From Haloplanus sp. XH21 (GTDB lineage: Archaea > Halobacteriota > Halobacteria > Halobacteriales > Haloferacaceae), in the NCBI RefSeq assembly GCF_023276355.1, contig NZ_JALLPL010000001.1, positions 186,001-250,000 on the forward strand: a DNA stretch of 64,000 nucleotides. Direction: 5' to 3'. The first letter of the stretch is position 1, and each line of letters begins with the position of its first letter. Under the pieces are notes generated by a model. That model was not told the origin of the DNA and ran no database searches. It worked only from the letters and a program-made list of their open reading frames with translations. This document shows, piece after piece, positions 26,198 through 62,931 of this stretch. A program made the translations under genes and the position numbers.

Positions 26198-26286
26198 GGG
26201 CCTATCAAAACATAGAAATGTGAATATTTTGTGGAACGCCTCAGGAAGGTCTATAGACCCGCAATTATCCACTTCTACATAGCAAC

Positions 26287-30600: not shown

Positions 30601-33207
30601 TTACTCCAAATGAGAGGCAGAGCGACTGCTTCTGGATGGACGAGAATCTGGACAGCGATACATTCGATCACGCGTAGAACCCTCAGCAACTATCAGACCG
30701 TAGCGTTCTAACTTCTTCAAATACGTCCGAACCGTTCGGTTTGACTTCGGCTCATCAACCCTGCTTCGATATTCCTCGAAGAGCTCTTGGGGAGCGATTC
30801 GCTCCTGCTCCTCGATCACCCGAAAGACAGCTTGCTGGTGGGACGTAAGCCGATCCAAGTGCTCCTGTCGCAGCTCTCGGCGGGCTTCAGGAAGCGCCCG
30901 CTCGACGAGGTTCTGAGTGATTCGATCTGCTGCGTCCTCGTCCGCCCGTCGAGCAGCGATTCTGAGCGTCGTAATCGCCACTCGCGCGTCGCCGTCCGCG
31001 GCGTCGGCGATGCGCTCGAACTCGGACCGTTTTATGTCCCTCGACACCGACCTTGCTGTGGCCCGCTCATCGAGGATGTCGACGAGCTCCTCCACGGCGT
31101 ACCGGTCGAGATGGAGTCGCTCACAGCCACCAAGTCGGCTCGCCAGTCGGTCGTCAAGTCCGTCGAGTAGGTCCTCCTCCCGGTTTGCGATAAGGAGAAG
31201 CGAGAATCGTGGGAGATTGAGAAGATCGTAGAGGAGGTCCTCGTCATCTAACTGGTCGACCTCGTCGAGAATCAGGACACAGTGTGACTCGTCGTAGTCG
31301 CGCAACCGGTCAAGAATGACGTCCGTCGCAGTCGACTGTCGGTGGATATCAGCTGCGCCTTCAAGCTCGTCCAGAATCCGGTAGAGAGTCTGGAAGGGAG
31401 AGTGATCCTCCCAGCAATTGACGTAGACCGCGTCAACCCCTGGGGTCTCTCGACAGAACTGGTCGACGGTGTACTTCGCGATGCAGGTCTTTCCGGATCC
31501 TGGCGGACCGGTGATGAGAATGGTATCGTGCTGCTCGCCGCGGGTGAGTGGCTCCAGAACGGCCGCGAGCTGGTTCACCTCGTCGTCGCGATGGACCACT
31601 GAGTCGGGGATGGATGAAAACGGCCCGGCTCCAGCCCCTCGTTCCGTTCCATCTCTTTCGACGGGGGCGCTCTCAGTTCCATCGTTCTCGACACTCGGTG
31701 CTTCCATTGCGGTCGCGTCGGACTCAGATTCATTAACCGATGCCGAGGAAGGACTCGGGATCTCATGTGACGGGGGGATAACCAGGAAGTTGGCGAGTTC
31801 GTTCCCGTTCAAAACAAGGTCCGGGCGGGATTCGCTCCTGTTCGTGATCGCGAACCGGTTCCCGCTGGTCGCAACCGACCGCGACGTGAAGCGTTCGAGG
31901 ACTGCGCGGGCGTGTCGCTCCCCGGACCCCGGGAGGTAGCCGTGTGATCGGAGCCGGCGGCCGTCCATCTCGTAGAACCGGCCATCGATGAGGTCAAAAA
32001 CTGAACACAAGGGATCCAAATACGCGTCTACATCCTCCGATGCATCCTCGTCGACAGCGAGTGCGAGCAACCGGAGGTTGCCCGAGAACGTTCGCTTCGG
32101 GGAGTTGGCTCGGACGAGGTCGTACCGGGTCGCCTCATCGACGCTCGCCGGTCGGGAGGGGCCTTCACCGGTGGGTGACTGGGTTCGTCGTGGGTGAGAA
32201 CTGCTTGACGTGCGGCGAGTCGAACGAGTGGATCGACCGTTACTGGCGGACATCCGCCCACGGCCCGAGGATTCGAACCCAAGGATCTTCTGGAGGAGGG
32301 TGTCCGTCCCGTCCAACAGCTCACCGGTTCGGCGCCGGGCGTCACGGGACCAGTCCGGTTTCCGCTGGAACACCACCTGGAAGGCGACCGGCATCGGCGC
32401 CTCGACGAGGTGTTTCATCAAGGGAGCGAGCGGGAGTTGAGCACGTCCGATCCGCTCGACAGTCGAACTCGGTTCATCAGCGAGAAAATCAGTGAGTCCG
32501 GTGAGTGTCGTCATCCAGTCCTTGCGGCGCTCGGCGGCGCCATACCACTGGACGCCATAGGGCTGGACCTCGGCCAGCGATGGACGGGCCAGGATGTGTC
32601 CTTCGTCTGTCGGCGTCGGTTTCTCGAGTGCGGTTAGCGGCTCGTCCTCGTCGTACGTACCTGGGGAAGCCAAGTCAATTCCGTCCAGACTGACTTCGGT
32701 ATCAGTCCCATCCGAGGTTGCCTCCACCTCTGGCGGTCGACGTGCATCTGCAGGTTGACTAGGCTCGACAGCTGCGTCCCCACCGTCCGAGACGGTCGCT
32801 CGCTCATCACCCGCGAGCGCTGTTGACTCGTAATAGAGCCGACCATCCTTGAGACGCTCACTAAACTCCTCCCGAGTGTATGCAACCGGCCGGACCAATC
32901 GCTTCATGACGTCGACCTCGACGCGATCGAGGTTGTAGGACGCCGGATAGATGGACCGGAGCCGCTGTTCGAGGGCGTCAAGGTGGTCATCAGCACCGTA
33001 ATAGAATTTCACCGGCTGCCCTTCGCCCACGCTGAGCGCAACGAATTCGAAGCAGAGCGGTGGCTGGCTGTGGAACGGGTTCAATCGGCGGAGGAGCGAC
33101 TCGGATTCGTTCTTCGATAGTTTGTGGAGACTGGTGATCGTGTCCGGGATGTCTCGAGGGACGATCGGTTCCTCTCCAGGGATGACCCGAAGGTAGGGCC
33201 GCTTCAC
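30601..33207 (-). CDS. Conjugation-ATPase-type N-terminal region fused to Orc1/Cdc6 ATPase
   Basis: An 868-residue protein, last gene of the secretion operon. Residues ~1-500 resemble the non-ATPase part of large haloarchaeal conjugation ATPases (RPYLRVIPGEEPIVPRDIPD, FEFVALSVGEGQPVKFYYGA, and NELANFLVIPP later) and include an acidic linker. The C-terminal part is Orc1/Cdc6-like AAA+: Walker A GPPGSGKTC near 565, VNCWEDHSPFQTLYRILDEL, Walker B LILDEVDQLDD near 645, DGDARVAITTLR, and a winged helix near 790-860. Orc1/Cdc6 binds replication origins, so this may link DNA transfer to replication or initiator-type DNA binding. It overlaps the preceding gene by four bases. Confidence 0.75.
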   Translation of the reverse strand: MKRPYLRVIPGEEPIVPRDIPDTITSLHKLSKNESESLLRRLNPFHSQPPLCFEFVALSVGEGQPVKFYYGADDHLDALEQRLRSIYPASYNLDRVEVDVMKRLVRPVAYTREEFSERLKDGRLYYESTALAGDERATVSDGGDAAVEPSQPADARRPPEVEATSDGTDTEVSLDGIDLASPGTYDEDEPLTALEKPTPTDEGHILARPSLAEVQPYGVQWYGAAERRKDWMTTLTGLTDFLADEPSSTVERIGRAQLPLAPLMKHLVEAPMPVAFQVVFQRKPDWSRDARRRTGELLDGTDTLLQKILGFESSGRGRMSASNGRSTRSTRRTSSSSHPRRTQSPTGEGPSRPASVDEATRYDLVRANSPKRTFSGNLRLLALAVDEDASEDVDAYLDPLCSVFDLIDGRFYEMDGRRLRSHGYLPGSGERHARAVLERFTSRSVATSGNRFAITNRSESRPDLVLNGNELANFLVIPPSHEIPSPSSASVNESESDATAMEAPSVENDGTESAPVERDGTERGAGAGPFSSIPDSVVHRDDEVNQLAAVLEPLTRGEQHDTILITGPPGSGKTCIAKYTVDQFCRETPGVDAVYVNCWEDHSPFQTLYRILDELEGAADIHRQSTATDVILDRLRDYDESHCVLILDEVDQLDDEDLLYDLLNLPRFSLLLIANREEDLLDGLDDRLASRLGGCERLHLDRYAVEELVDILDERATARSVSRDIKRSEFERIADAADGDARVAITTLRIAARRADEDAADRITQNLVERALPEARRELRQEHLDRLTSHQQAVFRVIEEQERIAPQELFEEYRSRVDEPKSNRTVRTYLKKLERYGLIVAEGSTRDRMYRCPDSRPSRSSRSASHLE

Positions 33208-34976
33208 GACGCGTCACCCCCTCGATTGACCTGACTGTCATCGTCGGCCGCATCGCCCCCCTCGTCTGTGGCGGGTTCTTCAGCCACGACGACGCGAGCC
33301 TCGCGGAGCACGCGGTCGTCAAGACGGTAGCCGAGCCGGTAGACGTTGACGATATCACCAGGGTCGGCGTCAGTCGCGGGCACTGTTTTGACTACCTGAT
33401 GCCGCGTGGGATCGACCGTCCCGCTCGTGTCGATCTCTTGGACTCCTTCCCGCTCGAGGATCGACTTGATCTGACGGTCGATCAGCTCGATCCCATCGGT
33501 GATCTCGGCTGCTGCATCGTCCTCGAGGACGGTTTCGGCGTCGAGTGCCCGCTGGAAATTATCCCGGATGTCGAAGAGATCGGTGAGCAGATCCTCTCGC
33601 TCGTCGTCGTTCGAGTCGGCTGCGCGGGTCTCTTGCAGTTCTTGTCGGACCTGGGCCAGGCGGGCTTCCAGGTCCTGCAGCTGTTCTTCGCGGTCGTGGA
33701 GTTCCGACTCCAGGTACGACGCCCAACCGCGGGTCTGCCGCAGTTCCTCCTCACGATCGAGGCGACTGGCGCCGCCGACGTCCCTTTCGTGTTCGTCACG
33801 CGTCGACTCGTCAAGTTTGCCGAATTGGTTCGTCTCCGGGGAATCCCCTCGGCCTCCAATCAGTGACGTCGAAGGCCACGGAATCACCTGGTGCCAGCGG
33901 TACGTGAGTTGTCGAACCCAGCGACTGAATGCAGCCCCTCGTTCCGTGAACGCGAAGTATCGACGCACCGCGTATAACAGGCCGACGACGAGCGGAACGA
34001 TCGCCACCGCAAGGGTGTTCGATTCGGAGCCGGGCAGTCCAATGACACCATCGTATAGCATGAGCCCCACGGCGTACTGGACGGGAAACTTCCAGATGGC
34101 CGGGTGAATCTGCAGTCCGTAGCTCCAGCGGTCCTCCAGCAGGGTTGCATGCAAGAAATAGACGAGTCCGAATGTACCCGCGCTCCAGGTGAGCACTCCT
34201 ATCGGTAGAAATACCGAACCGAGAACATTGAGCTGGCTCAGCACCCAGCCGAACCAACCAAGCAGGCCACCAGCGGCACAGATGGTCAAATAGTGCCAGC
34301 GAGGACGGGTTCGGCCCGTATCCCGATCCAGGTCTGTAACGTGGCGCTGATATTCGACGAGATGGGTGAGGTATCCGAGGCCGATGACACCCAGGACAAG
34401 AAACGGGCGGGCGACGAGGAACAACACCGACTCGTGATAGATATTCACCGTCGCTGCGAACCATCGAACCCCAGTATTTGGCGACAGGAACAGAGCACCC
34501 GTGAGCGCGGCGAAGACTGCGACCCCAGCGAGGACGGCCGCTACGATGCCAAGGATCGTGACGACCCGTCCCACGAAGACTGTTTGCTCCGGGAGTAGTG
34601 AATCTCGCCTTTCGGGAGCTATCTCGTCGACGGAGAGGGGAACAGGAATGCGAGTGTAAACCGGTCGAAAAGCTGCTCTGAAGCGGGTTAGCCAATCTCC
34701 GACGAGGGTACGGTGGGTCGCTCGACGGCGCTCTCGAATTCGGGTCTCGATCGTCTCCCAGTCATATCGGTCATCACACTCATGGCAAACAACAGCAGGT
34801 TCACCGTCTACTTCAGCATAGAATGCCCCAGGTTCTCCACCGCGATGGGCTCTATAAGCTGTTGAATCACAAGACTCGCAGGTGAACACGTCCCTTGGCC
34901 CGTCCATAAATTCCCAATATGCATCCTCATCATGAGGAAATGAGTCGCCGCTCGGATCTCCAGAATCTTCAGTCAT
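33204..34976 (-). CDS. Membrane protein with zinc ribbon and C-terminal GrpE domain
   Basis: A 590-residue protein with an unusual domain order. A zinc ribbon lies at residues ~33-67 (FTCESCDS and VVCHECDD). About six membrane segments span ~130-345. A coiled coil (LDREEELRQTRGWASYLESE onward, ~400-460) leads to a GrpE domain (~465-575): LLTDLFDIRDNFQRALDAE, then VDPTRHQVVKTVPATDADPG and LDDRVLREARVVVAEEP. GrpE is the nucleotide-exchange factor of DnaK (Hsp70). Anchored in a secretion operon it could recruit DnaK to the channel to unfold or refold transferred protein. It overlaps VirB4 by eight bases upstream and the next gene by four. Confidence 0.8.
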   Translation of the reverse strand: MTEDSGDPSGDSFPHDEDAYWEFMDGPRDVFTCESCDSTAYRAHRGGEPGAFYAEVDGEPAVVCHECDDRYDWETIETRIRERRRATHRTLVGDWLTRFRAAFRPVYTRIPVPLSVDEIAPERRDSLLPEQTVFVGRVVTILGIVAAVLAGVAVFAALTGALFLSPNTGVRWFAATVNIYHESVLFLVARPFLVLGVIGLGYLTHLVEYQRHVTDLDRDTGRTRPRWHYLTICAAGGLLGWFGWVLSQLNVLGSVFLPIGVLTWSAGTFGLVYFLHATLLEDRWSYGLQIHPAIWKFPVQYAVGLMLYDGVIGLPGSESNTLAVAIVPLVVGLLYAVRRYFAFTERGAAFSRWVRQLTYRWHQVIPWPSTSLIGGRGDSPETNQFGKLDESTRDEHERDVGGASRLDREEELRQTRGWASYLESELHDREEQLQDLEARLAQVRQELQETRAADSNDDEREDLLTDLFDIRDNFQRALDAETVLEDDAAAEITDGIELIDRQIKSILEREGVQEIDTSGTVDPTRHQVVKTVPATDADPGDIVNVYRLGYRLDDRVLREARVVVAEEPATDEGGDAADDDSQVNRGGDAS

Positions 34977-37908
34977 TGGGATGGTTATCGAGATCAGTTT
35001 CGAGGTTCTCTATCTCCTCTTGATCTAATGTCCTTCTTAGTTCTAAAGGGTCAGCATCGTTCAGCAATTGGGCTATCTCCCTCTGATCGAGGTCGTCGGT
35101 TTGGTTGAGTAGTGGACTTCCAGAATCCGCAGTCTCGTTTTCGGCCTCATCTTTCGTTAGGTCACTATCAGAGTGATCGGAACGGGCCTCCGAATCCGTT
35201 GGCTGTTCCCCGTCACCCGCCCCGTTAGCGACGGCCGTCGTTCCCTGATCATCGCCAGCTTCCCCGGCCTCGGCGGTAGCCTGGCCAGACTTCTCGGTAG
35301 ACCCTCCGTCGTTCGGTGAGTCAGCATGGATCCCCTCTCGCTGACTACCTTTTTCGGAAGTCGCTCTCGTTATCAGCGCTTCTTCCTCTGGGAAGGCGTG
35401 AACGTTGACCGGGAACCGACCGGCCTCTCCGACTTCGATTAGTGCTTGGCTGTAGCCGTACTCATCGGACCCCGGTTTCGCGTTCCGAATGAACTGGGCC
35501 TCGGGACCGGAGAGGTCGAGCCACTCCTCGGCGTTCGCGTCGGTCAGCCCCTCGACCTGATGGAAGATTTTGAGCACGCAATTGTCCGCGATGGCCTTCG
35601 TCTTCTGTGCCAGTTCGTCCGAATCGGCCCGGCTGAAGAATTCATCGACGGTCTGGGTGATGAGTTGGAGGGACAGATCGTAGTGCCGGGCGTGCCGGGT
35701 CGCACGCTCCAAGAACGACAGACTGGCCTCGTTCTGCATCAGGTAATGCGCCTCGTCGATCGCGAAGATCGCCTTCTTGTCCGTCTGCTTCGCCCGTTCG
35801 TAAACAGCCCGCAGGACCAACTGGAGCATTAACCCCGTCTTCTGTTTCCCCTCGATCTGCTGCATGTCCAGATACAGCACGTCGGAGCCGGAGATGTCTA
35901 TCTCCGTCTCCCGGGCCAGATTCGCGTACTCCCCACCTTCACGGAAGGGGGCCAGATCCATCCGGAGTTGGCTTGCCCGCTTCAGCCAGAGATCCGCTTC
36001 GATATCGGGGACCGTCTCGGGATTGTCACCAACGTATTCGACCGGATTCTGTGAGATGTCGGTGAGGATGTCCTGGAGATCACGGAGGGTCGGGCTCTCG
36101 TTGTGGTGGGTGGCCGGATCGGGCGTGATACCCTTCCGACGATAGGCCTCCTTGATCGCGACCGAGAGGACGCCCCGCTTGCCCGTCAGCGACATGTCCT
36201 CCATGGTGAAGAACGCCTGGATGAACTCCATGACGTCCTTTTGGACGGTCTTCGTGTACGGGTCGAGGTCGGGATTCTTCTCCAGAACGGCGTCGGGGGT
36301 CGGCGTAATCTCCAGCGGGTTCAGGCCACGCTTCCCGCTCAAGACCACCCGCTCGCCCCCGAGGATGTCCGTGAGTGCCCCGAGATCCCCGAACGGATCC
36401 GCAACGATCACCATCGTATCGTCGTCCTTTGCATAGGTCCGGAGCAGGCCCAAGATGGTATTGAACGTCTTGCCTGCCCCGATGTTCCCGGCAACGAAGC
36501 AGTTGTATCCTTTCTCCCGAGCGAACCGGTCCACAACAACGGGGCTGCCCGTAACCGAGTGGTACCCCATCAACACGCCCGACTCCTCGATGAGCGTCCC
36601 CGAGGAGAACGGGTAGAGCGCACCGACTGCCCCGCCGAGCATCGTCGCCGTTTGGCCGATCACGTCCTTGCCAATTGGACTGGTGGCGACCAGCGCGTCG
36701 GCCTGTCGATACGTCGCGCTCTTGGCTGTCAATTGCACGGACTGGAGGTTCCTTGTAACCCGCTCGGCTGCTTGCTCAACCTCCTCCTTTTCCTCACCGC
36801 GGACCGTCAGGTAGATACTCACATCGAAGATCTGCTGGGACCCGCCGACCAGTTGCGAATAGATCGCCTGGTGGTCGTCGAGCGTCTGTTCGGTGTCGAT
36901 TTGGGTGACATCACCCCGTTCTGACTTTTCTGCCTGCTTGACCTTCAGATCACGAATGCTCTTCTTGAGCTCCCCGATGGTTTTGGTGGGATCCCGCGGC
37001 TTGACGTGGATACTGTAGTCGAGGTCGATATCCGGAACGCGAGTGAGAGCCCGGTCGAGCATTCCAACTCCGGCCGTGTCCGGGTAGTCAACGATGACTA
37101 CCGTTTTCACCCACTGCTCGCCCACCTGCGCGGCCTTCGAGGTGAGCGTAACGCTCGGGGCTGCAATCAACGACGAGTGTAGATCGCCGACCTCTGTGAC
37201 GCTAGCCGGTTCATCGGTTCCGCTGACTCCATCCACGTCAGCGGGTGATTGGTCAGTCTCGGTTTCAGTGTCGACGGTCTCAGTGACCGATTCGGATCGG
37301 TCGGCCCCCAATTGTCGGTCGTGGTTCCGATGACCGATTGCGATGCCAGCACAAAGGACGAGTACAGTGAGGCCGAGTCCGTACAGCCCCGCTACCCAGA
37401 GAGTCGGTGACGGCACGCTCAAGCGCCAGCTATCTGGAAGGGCCGATATGAACCACCCAACCGCGCTGAGACAGCCGACCGTCCCGATCGCCGCCGCGAA
37501 GTCCAATCTCCTCGAATTCGAGAGGAGGACTGTCGCCCCAGCGAGGAGGACCGGGACGCCGCTGGCTCCCATTCCGTAGGCGGCTTCGAGAGCAAGCCCA
37601 TATCGAGTAGCCTCGGAGGGAAGCTGCAAGCCATAGATGTAACTCCCGACGCCAGCAGCGATCAACAAGACGCCAAGTCCGACGAGCCCACTCCCGAGAT
37701 AGATCTTGAGTTTCGTAGCCGATTGCCCGTCGTGGCCCGAAATCCAGCTCCCTAGTGACGAATATACCGAACCGTCGTCGCGATCTCCGAAAGTCTCGGC
37801 AGTGGTCGATGGTCGAGCCGAGTTCTCGTTACGGTCGTCGCGTCTACTTCCTCCATCCCCTGTTGACGTGTCGTCTTGGTCAGATGGCGTCGATTTTGTT
37901 TGAGCCAT
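34969..37908 (-). CDS. VirB4/TraC-like secretion ATPase with N-terminal membrane domain
   Basis: A 979-residue ATPase expected to energise assembly and transport of the type IV secretion apparatus. The N-terminal ~195 residues hold about four membrane segments, which bacterial VirB4 proteins usually lack or carry as a separate VirB3 fusion. The VirB4 domain follows: Walker A VAGNIGAGKTF at 474-482, VADPFGDLGAL, Walker B AIFAIDEAHYLM, and LQLITQTVDEFFSRAD. The last ~150 residues are low-complexity and acidic. The start overlaps the preceding stop by one base. Confidence 0.88.
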   Translation of the reverse strand: MAQTKSTPSDQDDTSTGDGGSRRDDRNENSARPSTTAETFGDRDDGSVYSSLGSWISGHDGQSATKLKIYLGSGLVGLGVLLIAAGVGSYIYGLQLPSEATRYGLALEAAYGMGASGVPVLLAGATVLLSNSRRLDFAAAIGTVGCLSAVGWFISALPDSWRLSVPSPTLWVAGLYGLGLTVLVLCAGIAIGHRNHDRQLGADRSESVTETVDTETETDQSPADVDGVSGTDEPASVTEVGDLHSSLIAAPSVTLTSKAAQVGEQWVKTVVIVDYPDTAGVGMLDRALTRVPDIDLDYSIHVKPRDPTKTIGELKKSIRDLKVKQAEKSERGDVTQIDTEQTLDDHQAIYSQLVGGSQQIFDVSIYLTVRGEEKEEVEQAAERVTRNLQSVQLTAKSATYRQADALVATSPIGKDVIGQTATMLGGAVGALYPFSSGTLIEESGVLMGYHSVTGSPVVVDRFAREKGYNCFVAGNIGAGKTFNTILGLLRTYAKDDDTMVIVADPFGDLGALTDILGGERVVLSGKRGLNPLEITPTPDAVLEKNPDLDPYTKTVQKDVMEFIQAFFTMEDMSLTGKRGVLSVAIKEAYRRKGITPDPATHHNESPTLRDLQDILTDISQNPVEYVGDNPETVPDIEADLWLKRASQLRMDLAPFREGGEYANLARETEIDISGSDVLYLDMQQIEGKQKTGLMLQLVLRAVYERAKQTDKKAIFAIDEAHYLMQNEASLSFLERATRHARHYDLSLQLITQTVDEFFSRADSDELAQKTKAIADNCVLKIFHQVEGLTDANAEEWLDLSGPEAQFIRNAKPGSDEYGYSQALIEVGEAGRFPVNVHAFPEEEALITRATSEKGSQREGIHADSPNDGGSTEKSGQATAEAGEAGDDQGTTAVANGAGDGEQPTDSEARSDHSDSDLTKDEAENETADSGSPLLNQTDDLDQREIAQLLNDADPLELRRTLDQEEIENLETDLDNHPND

Positions 37909-44336: not shown

Positions 44337-44343
44337 GCTATAT
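44337..44343 (+). promoter_or_regulatory. TATA box of the nuclease-kinase operon
   Basis: CTATATA lies 26-32 bases before the ATG at 44369. The upstream ATG at 44345 would overlap this box and be untranscribed, so the box argues for 44369 as the first codon. Confidence 0.55.
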
Positions 44344-44368
44344 AATGGGATTCGAATCAGAGACACAA

Positions 44369-45040
44369 ATGAAAATGGTTGCAAGGAACGTACTGGATAG
44401 TAGCTTCACTGGCGGGCCAACAAACGTAATCGAGGAGTTCTCGTACGGCGCTGGCCGCACCGATCTCGTACTGACTAAAGAATCAGAAACATATCGAGAA
44501 CACCGACTCGATGTCCTCGGAATCAATACCGCAATTGAACAGGATTCCCACCTGCGTGCCTTCCTGCTCCTGCATAGCCGCGACGAAATTTCGAAAGACT
44601 ACTTTTTCCGCCTTGGAGCGATGGATGAACGCAAAAAGAGGTCAGCACTCAAGTGGCTCATCACCAACGGATTTGTAGAGGAACTCGAAGATGACCGAAT
44701 CCGAACCGCCCCTCATCTCCGCAGACACATCACCCGCTCGTACTCAATCGAACTGAAACTTAAAAATTGGCAGAAGGCGGTGAAACAGGCCTTCCGCTCC
44801 AAATCCTTCTCAGACTACCAGTACGTCGCCCTCGATGACGACTACATTCTCCGGGCAATCGACAACATCGACGTCTTCAAAGATTACGGAGTCGGCCTCA
44901 TCTCCATCGATCAGGGTTCCGAGCAATACGTTGTGCACTATGATCCGGACCGGGAAACCCCATACTCACCACTGAACAAGTGGAGACTCAATGAAACAAC
45001 TATGTGGGATGAGTTCCCTTGCTACGCTAGTTCAGATTAA
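44369..45040 (+). CDS. Predicted PD-(D/E)XK-type nuclease with internal winged helix
   Basis: A 223-residue protein (start at 44369 from the TATA position; an ATG at 44345 adds eight residues). YGAGRTDLVL resembles the Asp motif, and SIELKLKNWQKAVKQAF the E-x-K motif, of the restriction-endonuclease-like fold; YQYVALDDDY and VGLISID continue the core strands. Between the motifs lies a winged-helix-like stretch (LRAFLLLHSRDEISKDYFFR to LITNGFVEELEDDRI). It may therefore bind DNA and cleave it. The fold is inferred from motif order, not from a known family. It is the first gene of a four-gene operon, with one base to the kinase gene. Confidence 0.6.
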   Translation: MKMVARNVLDSSFTGGPTNVIEEFSYGAGRTDLVLTKESETYREHRLDVLGINTAIEQDSHLRAFLLLHSRDEISKDYFFRLGAMDERKKRSALKWLITNGFVEELEDDRIRTAPHLRRHITRSYSIELKLKNWQKAVKQAFRSKSFSDYQYVALDDDYILRAIDNIDVFKDYGVGLISIDQGSEQYVVHYDPDRETPYSPLNKWRLNETTMWDEFPCYASSD

Positions 45041-45041
45041 T

Positions 45042-45905
45042 ATGTCCGGTGCTCTCACTATTGACCAAATCACCGCCCATTTCGAGGACGTCGACATCCA
45101 ACGCGAGATCGAAGGTGGTGCGAATAAACAAGTGTACGAGGCAAAGTACGAGGGGCAGACTATAGCGTTCAAAATCCTCCCAATCGACAACAGACGAGCC
45201 GAGGGATACGCAAAACGGGAGATCGAAACCATGCAGAAAATTGACTCCCCAATTCTGGTCGACCTTCATGGCTATACTGCTACGGAAATCGATGGAACCT
45301 ACGTGTTCGCCATCCTCGAAGAATTCGTCCCCGGGAACACGCTCAAGGACGTTCTCGAAGAAAACGGCGGTGACCTCGAACTCGGCATTGATGTGACGCG
45401 ATCGCTCCTGTCGGTCCTCGCGGCCTTTGACGAGGACGACATTATCCACCGAGATATCAAGCCTGGGAACATAATGGTTCGCCCGAGCGGCGATATCACT
45501 CTGCTTGACGTGGGTATCGCACGAATGCAAAACCGAACAAGCCTCACACCCACTTTCGCCCCGCACGCACCTGGGACATACGCATATTCAGCCCCCGAGC
45601 AGTTGAACAACGAGAAAGAAATCCAAGGATGCCGGACAGATCTATTCGCAACAGGTATCGTGATGTTCGAGTCCATCACCGGAGAGCACCCCTTCGCACC
45701 GGACGACATCGATATTACCATCCCCGATGCAATCCTACAAGAAGAGCGAAAAGAACTGGACGGATACATCGAAAACAAAGACTTTGAAGCACAACTCAAC
45801 GAATTCTTCAAGAAGATGACCGCATTCGAGCCCTACGAACGATTCCGGAAGCCAAAGTTCGCACGTCAAGAATTCAACAATATCACAGGTGGTGCCGATG
45901 TTTGA
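45042..45905 (+). CDS. Serine/threonine protein kinase (eukaryote-type)
   Basis: A 287-residue protein made almost only of a kinase domain. Glycine loop EGGANKQVYEAKY, Lys44 (IAFKIL), Glu60 (KREIETM), catalytic loop IIHRDIKPGN (Asp138, Lys140, Asn143), DVG at Asp156 in place of DFG, GTYAYSAPEQ, and RTDLFATGIVMFE are all present. All catalytic residues are kept, so it should be active. There is no membrane or sensor domain. The ATG at 45042 lies one base after the nuclease stop; the end overlaps the next gene by eight bases. Targets are unknown, possibly its operon partners. Confidence 0.9.
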   Translation: MSGALTIDQITAHFEDVDIQREIEGGANKQVYEAKYEGQTIAFKILPIDNRRAEGYAKREIETMQKIDSPILVDLHGYTATEIDGTYVFAILEEFVPGNTLKDVLEENGGDLELGIDVTRSLLSVLAAFDEDDIIHRDIKPGNIMVRPSGDITLLDVGIARMQNRTSLTPTFAPHAPGTYAYSAPEQLNNEKEIQGCRTDLFATGIVMFESITGEHPFAPDDIDITIPDAILQEERKELDGYIENKDFEAQLNEFFKKMTAFEPYERFRKPKFARQEFNNITGGADV

Positions 45906-47103
45906 AGAGTCCAGCTTCCTCGTCCAAATCGGCCACAACGGCCACCTCATGGTCGAAGACCTCCTTCAACGAGGCTACGCAGATGGCGCAATCCTCAGCC
46001 CTGCTGACTATAGCAAAGGCGACAACGAGGATATCTCGGACACCATCCATCGCTACGACGGCACCGTTCTCTTCGATCCACAGTTCTACATCCCACGGTC
46101 CGACCGACCCAAGTTCGACCACTACGATTACTACCAGGAATTCGGAGGCGACGACTTCGACACCGTAGCGGTCGGCTCAGAGAACGAAGCACTCTGCCGA
46201 GAGCTCGTCAACTTACAAGATGATTTAGATGTCGATGCTTACATCGCCCCCGCACGAGTCCTGGATACGTTCTCCGACCAGAAAATCGAAGAATGGGTGG
46301 AACTCACGGGAATGTTCCTTCACATCGCTGAAGAAGAAGGGCGCGACATTCCGGTGTTCGCATCGCTCCCTGTCGACCAACAACCGTTGACCGATAAGAG
46401 CCAGCGAAGCAAACTCCTAAACAACGCCACGCGAGTTGACCCAGACGGGTTCTACGTATCTACCGAATTCGACACAGACAATAGATACCCACTAACGGGC
46501 GTTTCGAACGTGTATTCCGTTCTGGACCTGTTGAATAGCTTGAAGCAGAACCACTACGAGGTTGTCGTCGGCCACACTCACCAGGTCGCTCACCTATATC
46601 TCGGGATTGGGGTAGATGCCTTCGCTTCCGGTCACTACGTGAATCTCCGCGCGTTCGACACACGACGTTGGGACCCCAACAACGAGCAGGGGGGTGGCCG
46701 ACAGGTCATCAAGTACTACTCCGACAAACTGCTGAACGAACTACGAGTGGATCAAGACCTCGATCTGATGTACCAGAAGGACGGATTCGACCTAGAGACC
46801 GTCCGAACCCCATCGGACTACGACGATCAGCTCTTCGAAAGCTCCGACCCGCCGTCCACTGTTGGTTGGGCGCTGCGTGACGCTTCTTGGGACCACTACA
46901 TCTGGTCTTGTTACGATATCTCGAGGAAATACCGCGGGAAATCAATAGATGAACGAATAGCGACCGCAGAGCAAACTGTGGAAGACGCCGAGGAGCTGTA
47001 TGAGGAAATTGAAGATGAGTTCGGGATGCTCACTGAACCGACGAAGCAAATCTATGGTGACTGGAAAGCCTCTCTGTCCACGATAAAGTCTGATGTCCTG
47101 TAG
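45898..47103 (+). CDS. Protein of unknown function, possible TIM-barrel
   Basis: A 401-residue protein. Alternating strands end in acidic or His residues (GAILSPADYS, VLFDPQFYIP, AYIAPARVLD, IPVFASLPVD, GFYVSTEFDT, YEVVVGHTHQVAHLYLGIG), a pattern suggesting an alpha/beta barrel. DAFASGHYVNLRAFD could be part of a phosphate- or base-binding site, loosely like tRNA-guanine transglycosylase relatives, but I cannot name a family. A helical C-terminal region follows. The start at 45898 overlaps the kinase gene by eight bases, so translation is probably coupled. Confidence 0.7.
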   Translation: MFEESSFLVQIGHNGHLMVEDLLQRGYADGAILSPADYSKGDNEDISDTIHRYDGTVLFDPQFYIPRSDRPKFDHYDYYQEFGGDDFDTVAVGSENEALCRELVNLQDDLDVDAYIAPARVLDTFSDQKIEEWVELTGMFLHIAEEEGRDIPVFASLPVDQQPLTDKSQRSKLLNNATRVDPDGFYVSTEFDTDNRYPLTGVSNVYSVLDLLNSLKQNHYEVVVGHTHQVAHLYLGIGVDAFASGHYVNLRAFDTRRWDPNNEQGGGRQVIKYYSDKLLNELRVDQDLDLMYQKDGFDLETVRTPSDYDDQLFESSDPPSTVGWALRDASWDHYIWSCYDISRKYRGKSIDERIATAEQTVEDAEELYEEIEDEFGMLTEPTKQIYGDWKASLSTIKSDVL

Positions 47104-47118
47104 AGAGTTGACATAGGA

Positions 47119-47805
47119 ATGAAGATAGGAGTTATCTCCGACATCCATGCAAATGCTCCCGCTCTTCGTGTCGTACTGGATGGTCTAGCCGACAGGGATG
47201 TTGACCAGACCCTTTGTGCTGGTGATGTAGTAGGCTACTACCCGTTCCCGAACGAAGTCATCTCACTCCTTGCAGAGCACGATGTTCGGTCGATCGTCGG
47301 GAATCACGATGCTGCTGTTCTTGATGAAACGCCCTCAGGATTTAGTATCGATGCTAAGCGTGCAGCTGATTGGACGAGGCGACAACTGACGCCCGAGAGC
47401 AACGCATTTCTCGAATCACTTCCGATGACAATCGAGGAAACTATCGATGGTCGAGAGGTATACGTGGTTCACGGCTCTCCGGAAGACCCGCTGAACGAGT
47501 ACATCTGGGGAGATGAAGTCGACGAACGAGCACTCGACTATTGGTTTGATAATCGGCCAGACTTGGTTATCTTTGGACACACCCATCGACCGTTCGTGAA
47601 GGAGATCGGGTCGACAACCGTACTAAATCCAGGGAGTGTAGGCCAGCCTCGGGATAGGAATCCTCGCTCTGCATTCGCTGTAGTTGACTTGAAGTCTCTG
47701 TCTGTGGACCGGTATCGGGTTGATTATGATATCGAAGCCGTCGCAGATGAGACTGGAAAATACCTTCCTCGTAAGCTCGGCGACCGACTGTACGAAGGTC
47801 GATGA
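47119..47805 (+). CDS. Metallophosphoesterase
   Basis: A 228-residue calcineurin-like phosphoesterase with a complete metal site: SDIHAN near residue 8, AGDVVGY, GNHDA, VHGSPED and FGHTHRPF, then LNPGSVGQPRDRN. It belongs to the single-domain group with protein-phosphatase-like and phosphodiesterase members. It starts 15 bases after the preceding gene. Next to a protein kinase it could reverse phosphorylation, or degrade a nucleotide product of the barrel-like protein; both are guesses. Confidence 0.88.
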   Translation: MKIGVISDIHANAPALRVVLDGLADRDVDQTLCAGDVVGYYPFPNEVISLLAEHDVRSIVGNHDAAVLDETPSGFSIDAKRAADWTRRQLTPESNAFLESLPMTIEETIDGREVYVVHGSPEDPLNEYIWGDEVDERALDYWFDNRPDLVIFGHTHRPFVKEIGSTTVLNPGSVGQPRDRNPRSAFAVVDLKSLSVDRYRVDYDIEAVADETGKYLPRKLGDRLYEGR

Positions 47806-56012: not shown

Positions 56013-58430
56013 ATGCCGAAGGCGGATCAAAAAACAGTCTCACAGGTCTTTTCGGACGCAAAATTACAAGTCCCACTCTATCAGCGAAGCTACGCTTGGG
56101 AACCGCAGCAGGTCGAGGACCTCCTGAACGACATCGACTACGTCTATCGCCGGCGCTACGGCTCTCCGAACGCTCGCAGCGTGACTACTGCTCCATCCGA
56201 TGCGGGCAGCAACGACATGAACGGGAATTCAGACGTCTACCACTACTTCGGGACGTTGGTTCTCAACGCGAGAGGCAAGCAGGACATGATGGGGTCGGAG
56301 TGGACCGTTTACGACATAATTGACGGGCAACAGCGGCTCACGACGACCAACGTCTTCATCGCCTGCATCGTGGAGGAGCTCGAGGCGATCGCGGATGCAT
56401 TCGATGCTGCGGGGCTCGGCAAGGAGGATCTCCCGGAAGGTGTCGTTCGCCCTCCTGGCTATCTCGCGACGAATTACACGGAGAACTATCTCAAGCTTGG
56501 CGACCGGAAGGAGGGCCGCCATCTTGAGCCCGGAGAACTCACTGAAGCAGCGTATGCAGAACTCATCATCGACCAGGGTGATCCACAGACGATCCTTGAC
56601 AATGACGAGCGGCTTGTCCCGGAGAAGAAGCTGGCCAGAGCGAAAGAAATCATCCAGAAGTGGATCCGTGAGAAGCGGGAACTCTTCCTCGGTGATGAAG
56701 ACCTGGGGCAGGCTACGGAAGCGGATCTCCTCGAATACTATACGGCCATCAAGCGGTATACGGGTGTTCTCACTTCCCAATTCAAACTCACCTCTCAAGA
56801 GGTCGAGAGCACGGACGAGGCAGGTCGGCTCTTCGAGGCTGTCAACGACCGAGGACGGGATATCACCCTTGCCGACAAGGTCAAATCGTACCTGATCTAC
56901 GTCTCCGGCGAATTCGACACGTTGGACTCAGAAGCAGTCGCCCGCCGATTCAACGACGCAGTCGAAACGGTCGCCCAGTACGCCACCGACGATGACGATA
57001 TCGACCAACTGGTTCAGTTCCACTGGGAGCTCTTTACGGGAGAGTACAAGAAAGTCCGCAAGAACCGATCTGGCCCGACGCCAATCCACCGGCGTATCAA
57101 GGAATCACCCCGCCATATTCCCCTCGAACGGGATCCAGAAGAGGTCGCGACGTGGGTCAACAACTACGTCGACACGCTCTCGAGCGTCTCCAAATCCTAC
57201 GTCCAAGCGAATTATCTCGACGTTTTCAACCGGCAAACCGACGTCTCGCCCCAGGTCCAGGCTCGCGTCAAGTCCCTCCACAACATCAACTTCTCCAATA
57301 TCGCGCCGCTCATCATCGCAGCCATCGAGCGATACGATGCTGACAGCCCGGAGTTCGCGCGGATTGCCACGCTCTGTGAGGTTTATTCGTTCCGCGTCTA
57401 CCAGGTCGCCAAACGATCGCAACGAACCGCACGCCGCGAGTTCAAGGAGGCAGCGCACCGGCTCTACGCCTCCGAGTTCGAGGACGGCTTCGTCGAGGAT
57501 CTGTTCGGTGAAGCGGTCGTCGACCCGCCCTACGAGAACCCAGCTGCCGCCGTCGACGAGGTGACGGCGTATCTCGACAATTACATCGGCCGGCACTGCC
57601 CCGATAACGACTTCGTCGAGTACCTGACGCGGTCGGACATCATCCAGGGGAGCGACACGCGCGGGTGGCCGGGCTTCTGTAACAAGGGTGCGATCCGGTT
57701 CCTGTTGTTCGAGTACGAGAAGCACCTTCGCCAGGAGAAGAACACGGATACGTCGCTGAAAATGCTCCCCAGCGTGATGGACCTCGACGAGTTCACGATC
57801 GAGCACATCGCGCCGCGAACGCCGGAGACCAGCGCTGCGGAGCTTGAAAATCACGAGGAGAACGTGAATCGGTTGGGGAATCTCGCGCTCCTCGGGCCGA
57901 AGGATAATCCGTCAGCGTCGAACGACGAGTATGCGACAAAGTACGAGGAGATCTACCAAGACGCGCAGATGGAGATCCTTGGTGATGACCTCCCAGCTCC
58001 GGCAGCGGGCTGGGACGTCGACGCGCTGGATGCACGAGCGCGGGATATCGTGGCCTTCGCGCTCGACCACTGGAGTGGCGAATCGGCGGCCGTCGTTACG
58101 ATGGCACAGGGAAGTTCCGACGAAGCTGAGGAGGCAGCCACTGATCCGAGGACGGACACCGCGTTCACCATCCGTGATGATGCACAACGGACGTATGCGG
58201 AGGACCTCGACGTGGATCCTTCGCGAGTGAAACTTGTCCGACAGGGTGACGCGGATATGCCGAGTTCAGGCGCCGATGGGGTAACCGAACTCCCACAGTG
58301 CTCCTGTGGAGCGCTCTACACTCGCATCTCCGATGGAGAGGATGACACAGAGATGTACGAGTGCGTCTGTGGGTCCTCGTTAGAAGCTCCGAATCTCGCT
58401 GGGATCACTCGGTCGGTTCTCGCTGACTGA
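56013..58430 (+). CDS. GmrSD-type modification-dependent restriction enzyme
   Basis: An 805-residue type IV restriction-like protein. The DUF262 (GmrS) domain has QVPLYQRSYAWE near 18 and IIDGQQRLTT near 103, the NTP-binding and hydrolysis signature. The DUF1524 (GmrD) domain has the His-Me nuclease motif FTIEHIAPRTPET near 595 with the following RLGNLALLGPKDNPSASND. A C-terminal extension (~690-805) carries a zinc-ribbon-like CSCGALY...CVCGSS, which is not part of the standard enzyme. GmrSD proteins cut DNA with modified (for example glucosylated) cytosines; target here unknown. Confidence 0.9.
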   Translation: MPKADQKTVSQVFSDAKLQVPLYQRSYAWEPQQVEDLLNDIDYVYRRRYGSPNARSVTTAPSDAGSNDMNGNSDVYHYFGTLVLNARGKQDMMGSEWTVYDIIDGQQRLTTTNVFIACIVEELEAIADAFDAAGLGKEDLPEGVVRPPGYLATNYTENYLKLGDRKEGRHLEPGELTEAAYAELIIDQGDPQTILDNDERLVPEKKLARAKEIIQKWIREKRELFLGDEDLGQATEADLLEYYTAIKRYTGVLTSQFKLTSQEVESTDEAGRLFEAVNDRGRDITLADKVKSYLIYVSGEFDTLDSEAVARRFNDAVETVAQYATDDDDIDQLVQFHWELFTGEYKKVRKNRSGPTPIHRRIKESPRHIPLERDPEEVATWVNNYVDTLSSVSKSYVQANYLDVFNRQTDVSPQVQARVKSLHNINFSNIAPLIIAAIERYDADSPEFARIATLCEVYSFRVYQVAKRSQRTARREFKEAAHRLYASEFEDGFVEDLFGEAVVDPPYENPAAAVDEVTAYLDNYIGRHCPDNDFVEYLTRSDIIQGSDTRGWPGFCNKGAIRFLLFEYEKHLRQEKNTDTSLKMLPSVMDLDEFTIEHIAPRTPETSAAELENHEENVNRLGNLALLGPKDNPSASNDEYATKYEEIYQDAQMEILGDDLPAPAAGWDVDALDARARDIVAFALDHWSGESAAVVTMAQGSSDEAEEAATDPRTDTAFTIRDDAQRTYAEDLDVDPSRVKLVRQGDADMPSSGADGVTELPQCSCGALYTRISDGEDDTEMYECVCGSSLEAPNLAGITRSVLAD

Positions 58431-58528: not shown

Positions 58529-59077
58529 TTAGTCAACGAGAAGTCCCTCCACCTTCGTCTGAAGGTGATTGAATGCCTCCTCCGCAGTCTCTACATCTGC
58601 TGCGCCGGTTATCACGACATTACCATTCGCGAAGACTAACAGCACGGCTGGGAAATCCGGCGGTCGGTAGATGAGACCAGGGAACTGCTCGGGTTCGTAC
58701 TCGACTGCTTCTAGTCCCAGTCCGACCGACAGCGCATTGAGGTTCACCGATCGCTGCAACTCTCCCGTACAGACGACGTTTTGGACGGTAAACCCGGTCT
58801 CGATGGATGTATTGATGATGTCCAGCCCGGCGAGGGTTTGCAGGAACGCACGGTTTGTCTCGTGTAATTCCTCGAAGCTGGAACGGCCGCTGATGATGTA
58901 CTTGCCACTCCGGTAGAGGGTGATGAGTGGTCCATCCTCGACGAGCCGTACGTAGAGACCGTGGTAGTTCTCGGGATCGTATTCGGTGTACGGAACCGGG
59001 AGATCAGCTTCGACTTCCGCAATGTCCAGTTCGACACCGACATCGCCTGAGCCAACGGCGTTCGCGATCTCAACCAT
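58529..59077 (-). CDS. tbp: TATA-binding protein, accessory copy 1
   Basis: A 182-residue TBP with the usual two direct repeats (~1-90 and ~92-180). Conserved blocks include VEYEPEQFPGLIYRPP with the matching TEYDPENYHGLYVRL of repeat 1, and KYIISG with its counterpart NVVITG. TBP binds TATA boxes and recruits TFB and RNA polymerase. The surface is less acidic than the haloarchaeal main TBP, and the gene lies in a defence cluster, so it is an accessory copy. The ATG directly abuts the helicase stop (TAAATG), so it is translated from the helicase mRNA. Confidence 0.9.
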   Translation of the reverse strand: MVEIANAVGSGDVGVELDIAEVEADLPVPYTEYDPENYHGLYVRLVEDGPLITLYRSGKYIISGRSSFEELHETNRAFLQTLAGLDIINTSIETGFTVQNVVCTGELQRSVNLNALSVGLGLEAVEYEPEQFPGLIYRPPDFPAVLLVFANGNVVITGAADVETAEEAFNHLQTKVEGLLVD

Positions 59078-62044
59078 TTAGTCCCCTCCGGACGGCGGTG
59101 ACACAACGAACGCTGCCGTCACGAGGTCTGGTTCCTGCGGCGTGACGTGCTTCTCTTCCTCAAGCCGGGACAGTTCCTCTTCACGCTCTCGTCGCAGACT
59201 TTCGAGCTTCTGCTTCGCGTTCCCAATCGGCGCGGACATATCCGCACCCTGCTCAGCCCGCTGTTGGTACTGCTCTAACCGCTCTTCCCACTCTTCGATT
59301 TGCTCTTCGAAGTATCGCCCAGCGTGCTCGCGTTTGATTTCGATCTCCCGTTCTCGTTCGGTTCGGGCCTCTTCGGCAAACGACTCAACGTGCGTCCACG
59401 CCTCCATTTCTGCGCCCTCGTAGAGGTCCTCCGCCATACTCGAAAGCCGATCAACCTCGTGCGACGACGAGACATCACTGGGAGCGGCCGTCTTCGAGAG
59501 TTCTGGAACATCCGTCATTACACTGCCATCCGGGCGAGCATAGAAGCGAACGAACTTCTCGGTCACCACATCCCCGGCACCGGAGACGTAGCCAAGGCGG
59601 TAATTGAACAGGATGCCAGGCGTTCGAGACGCCGTCGCAGCGATTTTCGTCGCAATTTCACCCTGGATCCGGTCACTGTCCAAGCAGAATTCGATGAGCG
59701 ACTCGACGAGAGGATGGTCAAGCGAGATGAACTCAACATCATCCTCCTCCATCGCGATATCCTTGGTGAAAGTGGCCCGTGGGTACTGTCGTGCCACCTG
59801 ATTTCCACTCAAGACCTCAGGGACATCCAACTGGAACACGTCACCCTCCATCCGGGCCGGTCCGGGTCGAACACCCTTGATGGAGCCGCCGAATTCGTCA
59901 AAGAACACGCGCACGAGCGTCTCGATGTCGTCCTCGGACACCTCGCCGTGTTGACTGCGTTCGATCACGTCGAGAATCTCGTCGTCCTCGCCGGAGAGGT
60001 CGAAGCGATCGCGAATCAGGAACTCGTTTTCGACAGTCTGAATCGCTTCGCGTTTCTCCTCGATGGTCGCCTCGATATCGGCGACGACACGTTCAGTCGG
60101 CTCGCCTTCAGCGATAGCCGCCATGATCGTCTCGTCCAAGTCGACGTCCTCGAGGACGCGACCGAGGACATCTGAGCGCATCCCGAGGTCCGACTCGATC
60201 TGATTCGTCTTCTCGATGAGCAGGTTGAGGATCTCGCTCTCGCGGGTATCGGCGAAGAAGAGGTTGCGAATCTCGACCGTGTGCTCCTGGCCGTAGCGGT
60301 GGAGCCGCCCCATCCGCTGGTCGATCCGGATGGGATTCCACGGGAGGTCGTAGTTCACCATGATGTGGGCGAACTGAAGGTTGAGCCCCTCTTGGGCGGC
60401 GTCGGTCGCGAGCATCAGATTAGCTTCCTCCTCGAATTTGCTCATCTCTTCTCGTCGACGGGACTGCTCGAGGTCGCCGTACACCTGGGCGACGTCGTGG
60501 TCAGCGAAGACCTCGTCACGTAGATACTCCAGCGTGTCCGTGTATTCGGTGAAAATCAGGATTTTCTCGTCGGGGTCCTCTGAGAGAATTCGGTCGACGA
60601 ACTGTCGGAGCAATCGGGCCTTCGAGTCCGTCTCGATGTTCTTGGCCTGCTGCCAGAGCTGTTTCACGCGGTCCAGCTCCTGCTGGACTTGCGACTGATT
60701 GAGCGTAATCGTGACCGTCTCAAGCGCCTCCTCGACCCGAGCGCGTTCTGCGTCGGTCAGTGTCTCGGGTTCGGTACTATACCGCGGAATGAGGTTCTGA
60801 ACCTCGTCAGGGAGGTCTTCTGCGACGGCGTCGTTCTGAATCGCCCGCATCCGGTTTTCGAGGGACTTCCGGATCGCGTAGATACTCGAGACCAGCCGCT
60901 TCTGGTAGATGACCATCGTGAACCCCGCCGCCTGGTTCTCCTCCTGCTGAGCAAGGTTGTAGTATTCGCGGATATACTCGGTGACGTCGTCGTACAGCTT
61001 CCGCTCCTCGCGTGTCATCTCGACCGGGAGTGCCTCGATGTTCTTCTCGGGGAACATTCGGGTCCCGTCGGTCTCGTACATATCGTCCTTCAGCCGCCGG
61101 ATCATCAGGTCCTCAAGCGCCTCGGGACTGATCTGCGACTCGTGGCTGAAGCGATACGGGTCGAGCAGACTCACGAGGAAGTAGAACTGGTCTGATTTCC
61201 CCTTGTGCGGGGTCCCGGTGAGCAGCAGCAGCGCATCGGAGTTGTCGGCGACGGCCTCACCGACCTGATACCGCTGTGTCCGCTCGATTGAGTCGTCGCT
61301 CGACCGTCTGGCCGTAAGGTGATGGGCCTCGTCGAAGACCGCAACGTCCCACTCCTCGTCGAGATTCTGGAGGGCATCGAGGACGGAGACGCGGTCCGAC
61401 TCAGGGTCGTCCGTGGTCTGCTTCGCGAAGTCGATGGAGGTGATAATGAGATCCTCTTGCTTCCAGACGTTCTGGTTGGGGTGGGACTTCCGGTGTGTAC
61501 GGACCGTCTCGCGGTCGTAGATGACGAAGTTGCGGTCGAACTTCTCGCGCATCTCCTCCTGCCACTGGACGGTCAGCGGCGCCGGCGCGACGATGAGCAC
61601 CCGGTCGGCGCGGTCGCGTGCGATGAGCTCTTCGATGACGATGCCGGCTTCGATGGTCTTCCCGAGGCCGACTTCGTCGCCGATGAGGTAGCGGTGGTCG
61701 TAGGAGTTGAGGATCTCGTAGGCGGCCTGGACCTGGTACGGTTCGATCTCGATGCGGTTGCTGGTCAGCGAGAGAAAGCGGTCGTACTTGTAGGCGAGAT
61801 CCAGCCGGATCGCCCGCTCTCGGAGGTCGTAATGGAGCGGGGCGTCGGATTGGCCCGCTGTGAGGCGGTCGACGAGCGAATCGAGTTTCTCGATGTGAGG
61901 GAGGCCGCTAGGGAGTTTGCGGAGCTGGCCCTCCGAGGTGTAGACGTGGAGGAGATGACCTCCGTTGGGCCGTTCCTCGATTTTCGTGATTTCTCCACGC
62001 CCGCCGGCGAACTTGACGTAGTCGCCAATCTCGAAGTTATTCAT
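59078..62044 (-). CDS. SNF2-type helicase of a DISARM-like locus
   Basis: A 988-residue superfamily 2 helicase. Motif I GDEVGLGKTIEAG is near 117, DEAH (VFDEAHHL) near 238, motif III LTGTPHKG, motif V TDAAQEGLNLQ near 545 and motif VI QRMGRLHRYGQ near 577. The ~60-residue N terminus (FEIGDYVKFAGGRGEITKIE) and the long C-terminal coiled coil are outside the core. The size, type and neighbouring adenine methyltransferase fit DrmD of class 1 DISARM defence, though drmA, drmB and drmC are not in the window. It overlaps a methyltransferase remnant upstream and abuts TBP copy 1 downstream. Confidence 0.85.
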   Translation of the reverse strand: MNNFEIGDYVKFAGGRGEITKIEERPNGGHLLHVYTSEGQLRKLPSGLPHIEKLDSLVDRLTAGQSDAPLHYDLRERAIRLDLAYKYDRFLSLTSNRIEIEPYQVQAAYEILNSYDHRYLIGDEVGLGKTIEAGIVIEELIARDRADRVLIVAPAPLTVQWQEEMREKFDRNFVIYDRETVRTHRKSHPNQNVWKQEDLIITSIDFAKQTTDDPESDRVSVLDALQNLDEEWDVAVFDEAHHLTARRSSDDSIERTQRYQVGEAVADNSDALLLLTGTPHKGKSDQFYFLVSLLDPYRFSHESQISPEALEDLMIRRLKDDMYETDGTRMFPEKNIEALPVEMTREERKLYDDVTEYIREYYNLAQQEENQAAGFTMVIYQKRLVSSIYAIRKSLENRMRAIQNDAVAEDLPDEVQNLIPRYSTEPETLTDAERARVEEALETVTITLNQSQVQQELDRVKQLWQQAKNIETDSKARLLRQFVDRILSEDPDEKILIFTEYTDTLEYLRDEVFADHDVAQVYGDLEQSRRREEMSKFEEEANLMLATDAAQEGLNLQFAHIMVNYDLPWNPIRIDQRMGRLHRYGQEHTVEIRNLFFADTRESEILNLLIEKTNQIESDLGMRSDVLGRVLEDVDLDETIMAAIAEGEPTERVVADIEATIEEKREAIQTVENEFLIRDRFDLSGEDDEILDVIERSQHGEVSEDDIETLVRVFFDEFGGSIKGVRPGPARMEGDVFQLDVPEVLSGNQVARQYPRATFTKDIAMEEDDVEFISLDHPLVESLIEFCLDSDRIQGEIATKIAATASRTPGILFNYRLGYVSGAGDVVTEKFVRFYARPDGSVMTDVPELSKTAAPSDVSSSHEVDRLSSMAEDLYEGAEMEAWTHVESFAEEARTEREREIEIKREHAGRYFEEQIEEWEERLEQYQQRAEQGADMSAPIGNAKQKLESLRREREEELSRLEEEKHVTPQEPDLVTAAFVVSPPSGGD

Positions 62045-62192
62045 AGTAAACTACCGATTCGACGGTTCCCCCATCAGCCAAGCCGTAGAGGGTGTGCTCC
62101 TTAACCAGAAATTCATCGAGATAATCGAGGTACTCATTGATGGTACGGGTGAATATATTCTTGTGACGATTGTCGATAAACGGGGATACATT
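62037..62192 (-). pseudogene. C-terminal remnant of a methyltransferase gene
   Basis: A 51-codon open stretch ends INEYLDYLDEFLVKEHTLYG, LADGGTVESVVYYE, then stop. It resembles the end of the intact methyltransferase gene (YDLYGLTDEEIEVVESEEG), and its stop overlaps the helicase start as ATGAATAA, much as the intact gene's stop overlaps the helicase remnant. No start or upstream domain remains. The match is short, so it is uncertain on its own; it is supported by the helicase and TBP duplication around it. Confidence 0.45.
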
Positions 62193-62219
62193 CTACAGTA
62201 TGATGAAAGAAGAGTCATT

Positions 62220-62765: not shown

Positions 62766-62931
62766 ATTTGACCAACTGTCTTGTCGGGGAAGGCCACGGG
62801 GGATTTGCGAAGCTGTCCCTCTGTAGTGGAGACATAAGGAGGTGACCGCCGTTCAGTTGTTCTTCGATCTTCGTGACTTCTCTATGTCTACCAGCGAATT
62901 TGACGCAATCATTGACAACGAAGCCAGTCAT
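62762..62931 (-). pseudogene. N-terminal remnant of a second helicase gene
   Basis: The ATG at 62931 overlaps the methyltransferase stop (ATGA) and opens MTGFVVNDCVKFAGRHREVT, KIEEQLNGGHLL, clearly matching the intact helicase start (NNFEIGDYVKFAGGRGEITK, IEERPNGGHLL). After GGHLL a one-base shift is needed: the next frame reads YVSTTEGQLRKSPVAFPD, matching HVYTSEGQLRKLPSGLPH. It then stops, and TBP copy 2 begins. The rest of this helicase is deleted. Confidence 0.8.

Follow-up and report, generated by a model that had tools for sequence, protein, structure and literature searches.

The compact block of four genes at 44345-47805 of a 64,000-nucleotide stretch of the Haloplanus sp. XH21 genome (contig NZ_JALLPL010000001.1, positions 186,001 to 250,000; hereafter the window) raises the question as to whether these genes form a functional module and, if they do, what such a module might be for. 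In order along the strand gene A encodes a predicted nuclease, gene B a Hanks-type protein kinase, gene C a protein that none of the profile libraries recognises and gene D a calcineurin-like metallophosphoesterase. All four are intact open reading frames on the same strand with intergenic spacings of +1, -8 and +15, as a first-pass annotation made from the letters alone had described them. That annotation treated the four genes as one set; we find A, B and C recurring together in 21 loci, but the module core is these three genes and D is a lineage-specific add-on.

Recurrence and inheritance of the A-B-C gene set

As the unrecognised protein, C was used as the search seed and every haloarchaeal relative genome recovered with it has A, B and C adjacent and in the same order. 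Two genomes of another class in the same phylum have the order B-C-A without D, a Polaromonas plasmid has the order A-B-C, and on Priestia and Kocuria plasmids A is convergent with a single protein of 675-677 aa that unites the kinase with C; the module is seen in several gene orders and orientations. A scan of predicted viral contigs, a set chosen through the A profile and not through C, gave 10 loci, 6 of which have a kinase and C beside A. In all, the three genes are adjacent in 10 haloarchaea, 2 methanogen-class archaea, 3 bacterial plasmids and 6 predicted viral contigs, and since the arrangement recurs across orders it is not due to chance. Homology beyond the haloarchaea is indicated by hhalign with E values of 1e-6 to 8e-16 for the C parts and 5e-8 to 3e-21 for the A parts, and the Priestia and Kocuria fusions are matched across the whole C domain (1e-6 and 4e-11, respectively). 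A pattern search of genome contigs with C found one relative, a figure that reflects the limit of pattern searching. Of the incomplete loci, L081 has A with a mere fragment of C, which lies where the contig stops, L076 is truncated by its contig end and L083 has A alone.

Among the haloarchaeal loci the pairwise protein distances of A, B, C and D correlate with one another (r 0.74-0.89; the value was reached in 0-3 of 5000 permutations), which fits inheritance as a unit, to which shared host phylogeny may contribute. In the closest pair of loci (L030 and L073) dN/dS is 0.06 for A, 0.05 for B, 0.05 for C and 0.15 for D, and all four genes are under purifying selection, D least strictly. The first-pass annotation had named free variation of the neighbours among relatives as the outcome that would speak against a system, and this is not what is seen: the A+B+C loci span two domains, B and C are fused on two plasmids and the distances are correlated.

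Carriage is sporadic: among archaeal genomes the module is present in 1 of 12 for the genus, in 6 of 170 for the family, in 8 of 392 for the order and in 9 of 391 for the class. Integrases lie a few kilobases or less from four of the copies (L008, L012, L013 and L030), a transposase adjoins another (L014) and further copies are on plasmids or predicted viral contigs. The window copy has a G+C content of 50-54% across A-D, compared with mostly 56-65% in the flanks, and lies in a defence-rich mobile island, with a BrxHII/DrmD-like helicase, a GmrSD/HEC-06-like protein, SocA/Panacea, AlbA_2 and a TraG-like ATPase in the surrounding ~20 kb.

Predicted proteins and layout of the locus

The first-pass annotation had called C a protein of about 400 residues of unrecognised family. 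With respect to profile libraries this stands, with no match above noise in Pfam, NCBIfam, PHROGs, PADLOC or PDB sequence searches and no model in the NCBIfam release of June 2026 that recognises it, but the predicted structure does give a recognisable fold, that of the tRNA-guanine transglycosylases (TGTs). An AlphaFold2 model built from 8 sequences is a (beta-alpha)8 barrel with a pLDDT of 72.5 and a pTM of 0.79, with low confidence at residues 65-92 and 246-272. The best PDB match of this model in Foldseek is a TGT (5e-6), with other TIM barrels close behind, and on re-ranking with VIA-align all 50 matches listed are TGTs (Z 18.6-19.3, ~291-316 residues aligned, ~10% identity), so that C is predicted to have the TGT TIM-barrel fold. 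Searches with PF01702 gave nothing at E values up to 10 in 12 members of the family, nor in further relatives, and hhalign of C with the ArcTGT of its own genome and 30 archaeal TGTs gave no significant match (probability 2% with the 30 TGTs). As sequence profiles do not detect it, the evidence for the TGT link of C is the fold, together with the CxCxxC motif of two relatives. In these two, the Priestia protein (CNCRHC) and the distant relative in L080 (CNCPVC), the motif is followed by a His as in the TGT zinc site; this CxCxxC...H site is missing in the window C and in all haloarchaeal members.

Four residues of C (D60, P61, P118 and G245) are invariant in 22 relatives, and D60 is probably the equivalent of the strand-3 barrel Asp of TGT (VTDSGSFQ in the ArcTGT of the same genome). 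At the end of strand 8, where TGTs have their nucleophile, none of the 22 C relatives has an Asp (GVDAFASG in the window compared with GCDLFDSA in ArcTGT, register by hand). The catalytic roles of both Asp positions are established for the TGT family. The register between C and TGT was set by eye from strand order and is the weakest step of the analysis; if it is right, C cannot act as a normal transglycosylase. The host genome has its own TGT genes elsewhere, and this, with the missing nucleophile, goes against C being a member of a known housekeeping family, a possibility that the first-pass annotation had raised against its own idea of a system.

The AlphaFold2 model of A (pLDDT 85) has the order alpha-beta-beta-(winged helix-turn-helix)-beta-alpha-beta, which is the core of a PD-(D/E)xK nuclease interrupted by a winged helix. 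Five residues (E6, D40, E136, K138 and Q148) are invariant in 13 diverse relatives, and with an alpha-beta-beta-beta-alpha-beta core and both the D and the (D/E)xK elements the modelled protein has the features of the PD-(D/E)xK superfamily. VIA-align matches the core to PaqCI, a DNA restriction enzyme and the top structural match (Z 12.0), XisH-family proteins (10.2-10.4), Can2 (8.6) and Cdn1 (8.2); Foldseek alone gave nothing under 1e-3 for this model. No meaningful family match was found in Pfam, NCBIfam or PADLOC, and one unnamed PHROG is matched (phrog_22231, 5e-13). A weak PADLOC match of A to AriA (E 0.016) was dropped as noise, as were DUF5461/TRCF matches. The nuclease with an internal winged helix of the first-pass annotation is thus upheld as to fold and insert, but the helix that had made it 'DNA-directed' is dispensable: it is absent from the Polaromonas, G630 and G588 homologues and therefore not essential to the module.

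Distant relatives of A are also met without B and C, as in the haloviruses phiH and PhiCh1, where methyltransferase genes lie nearby, so that the wider A family is not exclusive to the module. In PhiCh1 (ORF84, L034 3992-4756) and phiH1 (L035 3992-4762) the A relative stands two genes after an N4-cytosine methyltransferase and is possibly part of viral restriction-modification; a Natronosalvus plasmid (L026) has a similar arrangement.

The intact kinase and the complete metallophosphoesterase of the first-pass annotation are both borne out. B matches the protein kinase family (PF00069, 1.5e-31) and has the full set of Hanks-type Ser/Thr kinase motifs (K, HRDIKPGN, DVG and APE); its nearest PADLOC models are PD-T4-6 (2e-42) and MAD6 (8e-39), and the PglW model matches its kinase part only, at 47 bits against a cut-off of 990. 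D matches PF12850 (7e-30) and has all metal motifs of a calcineurin-like phosphoesterase (DxH, GDxxG, GNHD, HGSP and GHxH). It follows the core in 8 of 10 haloarchaeal modules (being absent from L013 and L014) and in 0 of 5 methanogen and plasmid modules. The D copy of L012 (6482-7168) has GQTH in place of the metal-binding GHTH and is perhaps inactive. On one predicted viral contig (L077, 241-1014) a metallophosphoesterase (PF00149, 3e-14) that is weakly like haloarchaeal D adjoins the module, a hint that such enzymes may have been recruited to it independently and more than once.

The four genes had been described as following one TATA box. The TATA-like string CTATATAA directly touches the start of A, whose MGFxSE beginning is kept in relatives, and the string itself is not kept; for these reasons we reject it as the promoter of any transcript that includes all of the annotated A. 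The features of the locus and of its surroundings are collected in Table 1.

Table 1 Features of the module and of neighbouring loci in the window
Feature	Position	Strand	Remarks
CTATATAA string	44337..44344	+	TATA-like; directly abuts start codon of gene A
Gene A	44345..45040	+	231 aa; PD-(D/E)xK nuclease fold with winged-helix insert; predicted effector
Catalytic Asp D40 codon of A (GRTDLV)	44462..44464	+	invariant in 13 sequences
Winged-helix insertion of A, ~residues 61-124	44525..44716	+	MecI/BlaI/MarR winged helix-turn-helix matches over residues 61-128
ExK motif of A (E136-L-K138)	44750..44758	+	E and K invariant in 13 sequences
Gene B	45042..45905	+	287 aa; intact Hanks-type Ser/Thr protein kinase; predicted relay
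Gene C	45898..47103	+	401 aa; predicted TGT-fold TIM barrel without TGT nucleophile; predicted sensor/adaptor of kinase
D60-P61 of C	46075..46080	+	22/22 relatives; probable equivalence to TGT beta-3 barrel Asp by hand, from strand order
Gene D	47119..47805	+	228 aa; calcineurin-like metallophosphoesterase; accessory, predicted reset
TraG-like ATPase	34969-37908		conjugation-like gene block
GmrSD-type protein	56013-58430		PF03235/PF07510; near HEC-06 and Orf5 PADLOC models
BrxHII/DrmD-like SNF2 helicase, 988 aa (PADLOC 4e-170), and fragment matching the final part of a type IIG restriction-modification enzyme	58529-63896		another defence locus, at window edge

Among the neighbours, the gene at 33204-34976, in the conjugation-like block beside the TraG-like ATPase, encodes 590 aa that end in a GrpE domain (1.4e-31), an odd site for a chaperone cofactor. 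Two tandem proteins at 25121-27426 share an NQHYVPQ start and the pair has no PADLOC match; after them comes the convergent AlbA_2 (Schlafen-type) gene at 27444-28655.

Proposed mechanism and rival explanations

Beyond the gene identities, predicted folds, invariant residues, co-inheritance, B-C fusion and mobile context, all of which come from computation, we infer an order of signalling, DNA as the target, a purpose in defence and a role for D. Our preferred reading, to which we give a probability of about 45%, is that A-B-C is a mobile sensor-kinase-nuclease conflict module with an optional phosphatase reset, for which antiviral defence would be the likeliest use, as suggested by fold, mobility and neighbourhood. 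Given the B-C fusions of some bacteria, C is most simply regarded as part of kinase B and would serve as its sensing or adaptor subunit. Binding of a trigger by C, for which a nucleic acid or nucleobase is the best guess, would turn B on and phosphorylation by B would release A, which we take as the effector because it is the only obvious one in the set; A would then cut DNA and so stop the infection or the cell. In haloarchaea D would dephosphorylate and thereby reset the switch.

A number of observations weigh against this reading. One locus (L080, 4267-7531) has A and C without the kinase and the Gordonia plasmid pGBRO01 (L031, 6040-7248) has C without A or B within a 13-kb locus, so that C has no strict need of the kinase. 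The absence of D from most lineages means that phosphatase reset is not a core feature, the PADLOC kinase matches of B are generic for Hanks kinases, and the copies on predicted viral contigs fit superinfection exclusion or a selfish role no less than defence of the host. The L080 pair adjoins a nucleoside-deoxyribosyltransferase-like protein and is possibly a simpler relative of the module, and the Gordonia C relative has a phosphotransferase gene and a gene for a HEPN-associated protein as neighbours.

The same plasmids, nearby integrases and predicted viral contigs, together with the tight gene overlaps, would also suit an addiction or maintenance module in which the nuclease (or the kinase) is the toxin, the balance of kinase and phosphoesterase the antidote and protection from viruses a by-product. 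There is a precedent in KKP, with its kinase toxin and phosphatase antitoxin (PMC11341870), but three core proteins including the large TGT-fold C exceed the needs of a toxin-antitoxin pair and the obvious antidote D is missing in most lineages, and we regard this explanation as on balance unlikely. Were C instead an active DNA base modifier, working with kinase and phosphoesterase steps while A cuts unmodified DNA, the module would resemble a restriction-modification system; TGT relatives do modify DNA in Dpd systems (PMC12839542; PMC6884629) and C retains the invariant barrel Asp. This appears improbable with an Asp at the TGT nucleophile position in 0 of 22 C relatives, with no further Dpd gene observed among those of the module and with a protein-type Hanks kinase that would be an odd base kinase.

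The TGT fold of C could also be read as a sign of RNA: C would bind tRNA, as TGTs do, and sense damage to it or its processing by a virus, while A would cut RNA or single-stranded nucleic acid. The structures close to A include CRISPR ancillary nucleases of the Can2/Card1/Cdn1 type. We give such an RNA or tRNA switch little credence, as the winged helix of haloarchaeal A is more typical of DNA binding and PaqCI, its best structural match, acts on DNA. Lastly the mobile context and the resemblance of the A fold to XisH-family proteins are consistent with a non-defence regulatory operon of integrative elements, controlling for example excision or transfer, but the core turns up in elements unrelated to one another, on plasmids and on predicted viral contigs in two domains of life with no common transfer genes seen adjoining it, and the window copy sits in a defence island, which makes this very improbable.

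Within the preferred reading of a sensor-kinase-nuclease module a more specific trigger can be imagined, in which C would be a TGT-derived reader of 7-deazaguanine-modified invader DNA (or of viral guanine-swapping machinery, or of a tRNA equivalent) that signals to the nuclease by phosphorylation. Haloviruses such as HVTV-1 have 7-deazaguanine DNA (PMC6884629, PMC8651126), and as they carry such modifications a reader of this kind is biologically reasonable, which motivates the idea without supporting it; we think it a speculative and unlikely refinement. If true, a virus's anti-restriction DNA modification would become the trigger of its own destruction.

Comparison with known systems

No description of a kinase-TGT-nuclease system was found in the open-access literature, although one may exist elsewhere, and the first-pass annotation had likewise known of no system with this gene set. 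The nearest relatives in fold are the TGTs themselves (TGT/ArcTGT/QTRT1, PF01702) and their DNA-acting paralogue DpdA, with which C shares the predicted TIM barrel (~316 residues, Z 19.3) and an Asp at the end of strand 3. It is unlike them in sequence, at the nucleophile Asp and, in haloarchaea, at the CxCxxC motif, and it comes with a kinase and a nuclease as partners. The TGT paralogue used by Dpd is an active enzyme. By contrast with Dpd 7-deazaguanine modification and restriction C is without the nucleophile, a PADLOC scan of the module gave no Dpd protein and only A-D recur at the module loci.

Phosphorylation-based systems offer a second comparison. KKP, an antiphage toxin-antitoxin system of two adjacent kinases and a PP2C phosphatase (PMC11341870), is likewise mobile and phosphorylation-based with a Hanks kinase beside a phosphatase, whereas our module has one kinase, an optional calcineurin-type enzyme, a nuclease and a TGT-fold protein. 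BREX PglW and the kinase-bearing DndF are NERD nucleases fused to a Ser/Thr kinase (PMC12839542) and similarly couple a restriction-type nuclease fold to a Hanks kinase; in the module the nuclease is small and is a protein distinct from the kinase, and the partner with the TGT fold is new. Of the components of BREX with PglW (PglW, PglZ, PglX and BrxC) B fits the kinase part of PglW only. A TGT homologue in a defence locus is also a feature of BREX-related capture systems with GNAT and TGT, which are built on HerA/FtsK, PglZ and a BrxC-like protein (PMC12839542), none of which is in the module. Single-kinase defence of the PD-T4-6/Stk2 type and the MADS kinase MAD6 differ in gene set, and B matches these models in the kinase domain only, as most Hanks kinases do.

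Compared with these systems the newness lies in the gene set and in the C protein family, a TGT-fold family unnamed in four profile libraries and linked with a kinase and a nuclease in archaea, bacteria and predicted viruses alike, while its function is a prediction. Should it prove to be a defence system it would be the first known to us to place a kinase-controlled nuclease under the direction of a repurposed tRNA-modification enzyme, and would provide a testable case of archaeal immunity by phosphorylation signalling, with a three-gene core of ~2.8 kb whose small size eases testing.

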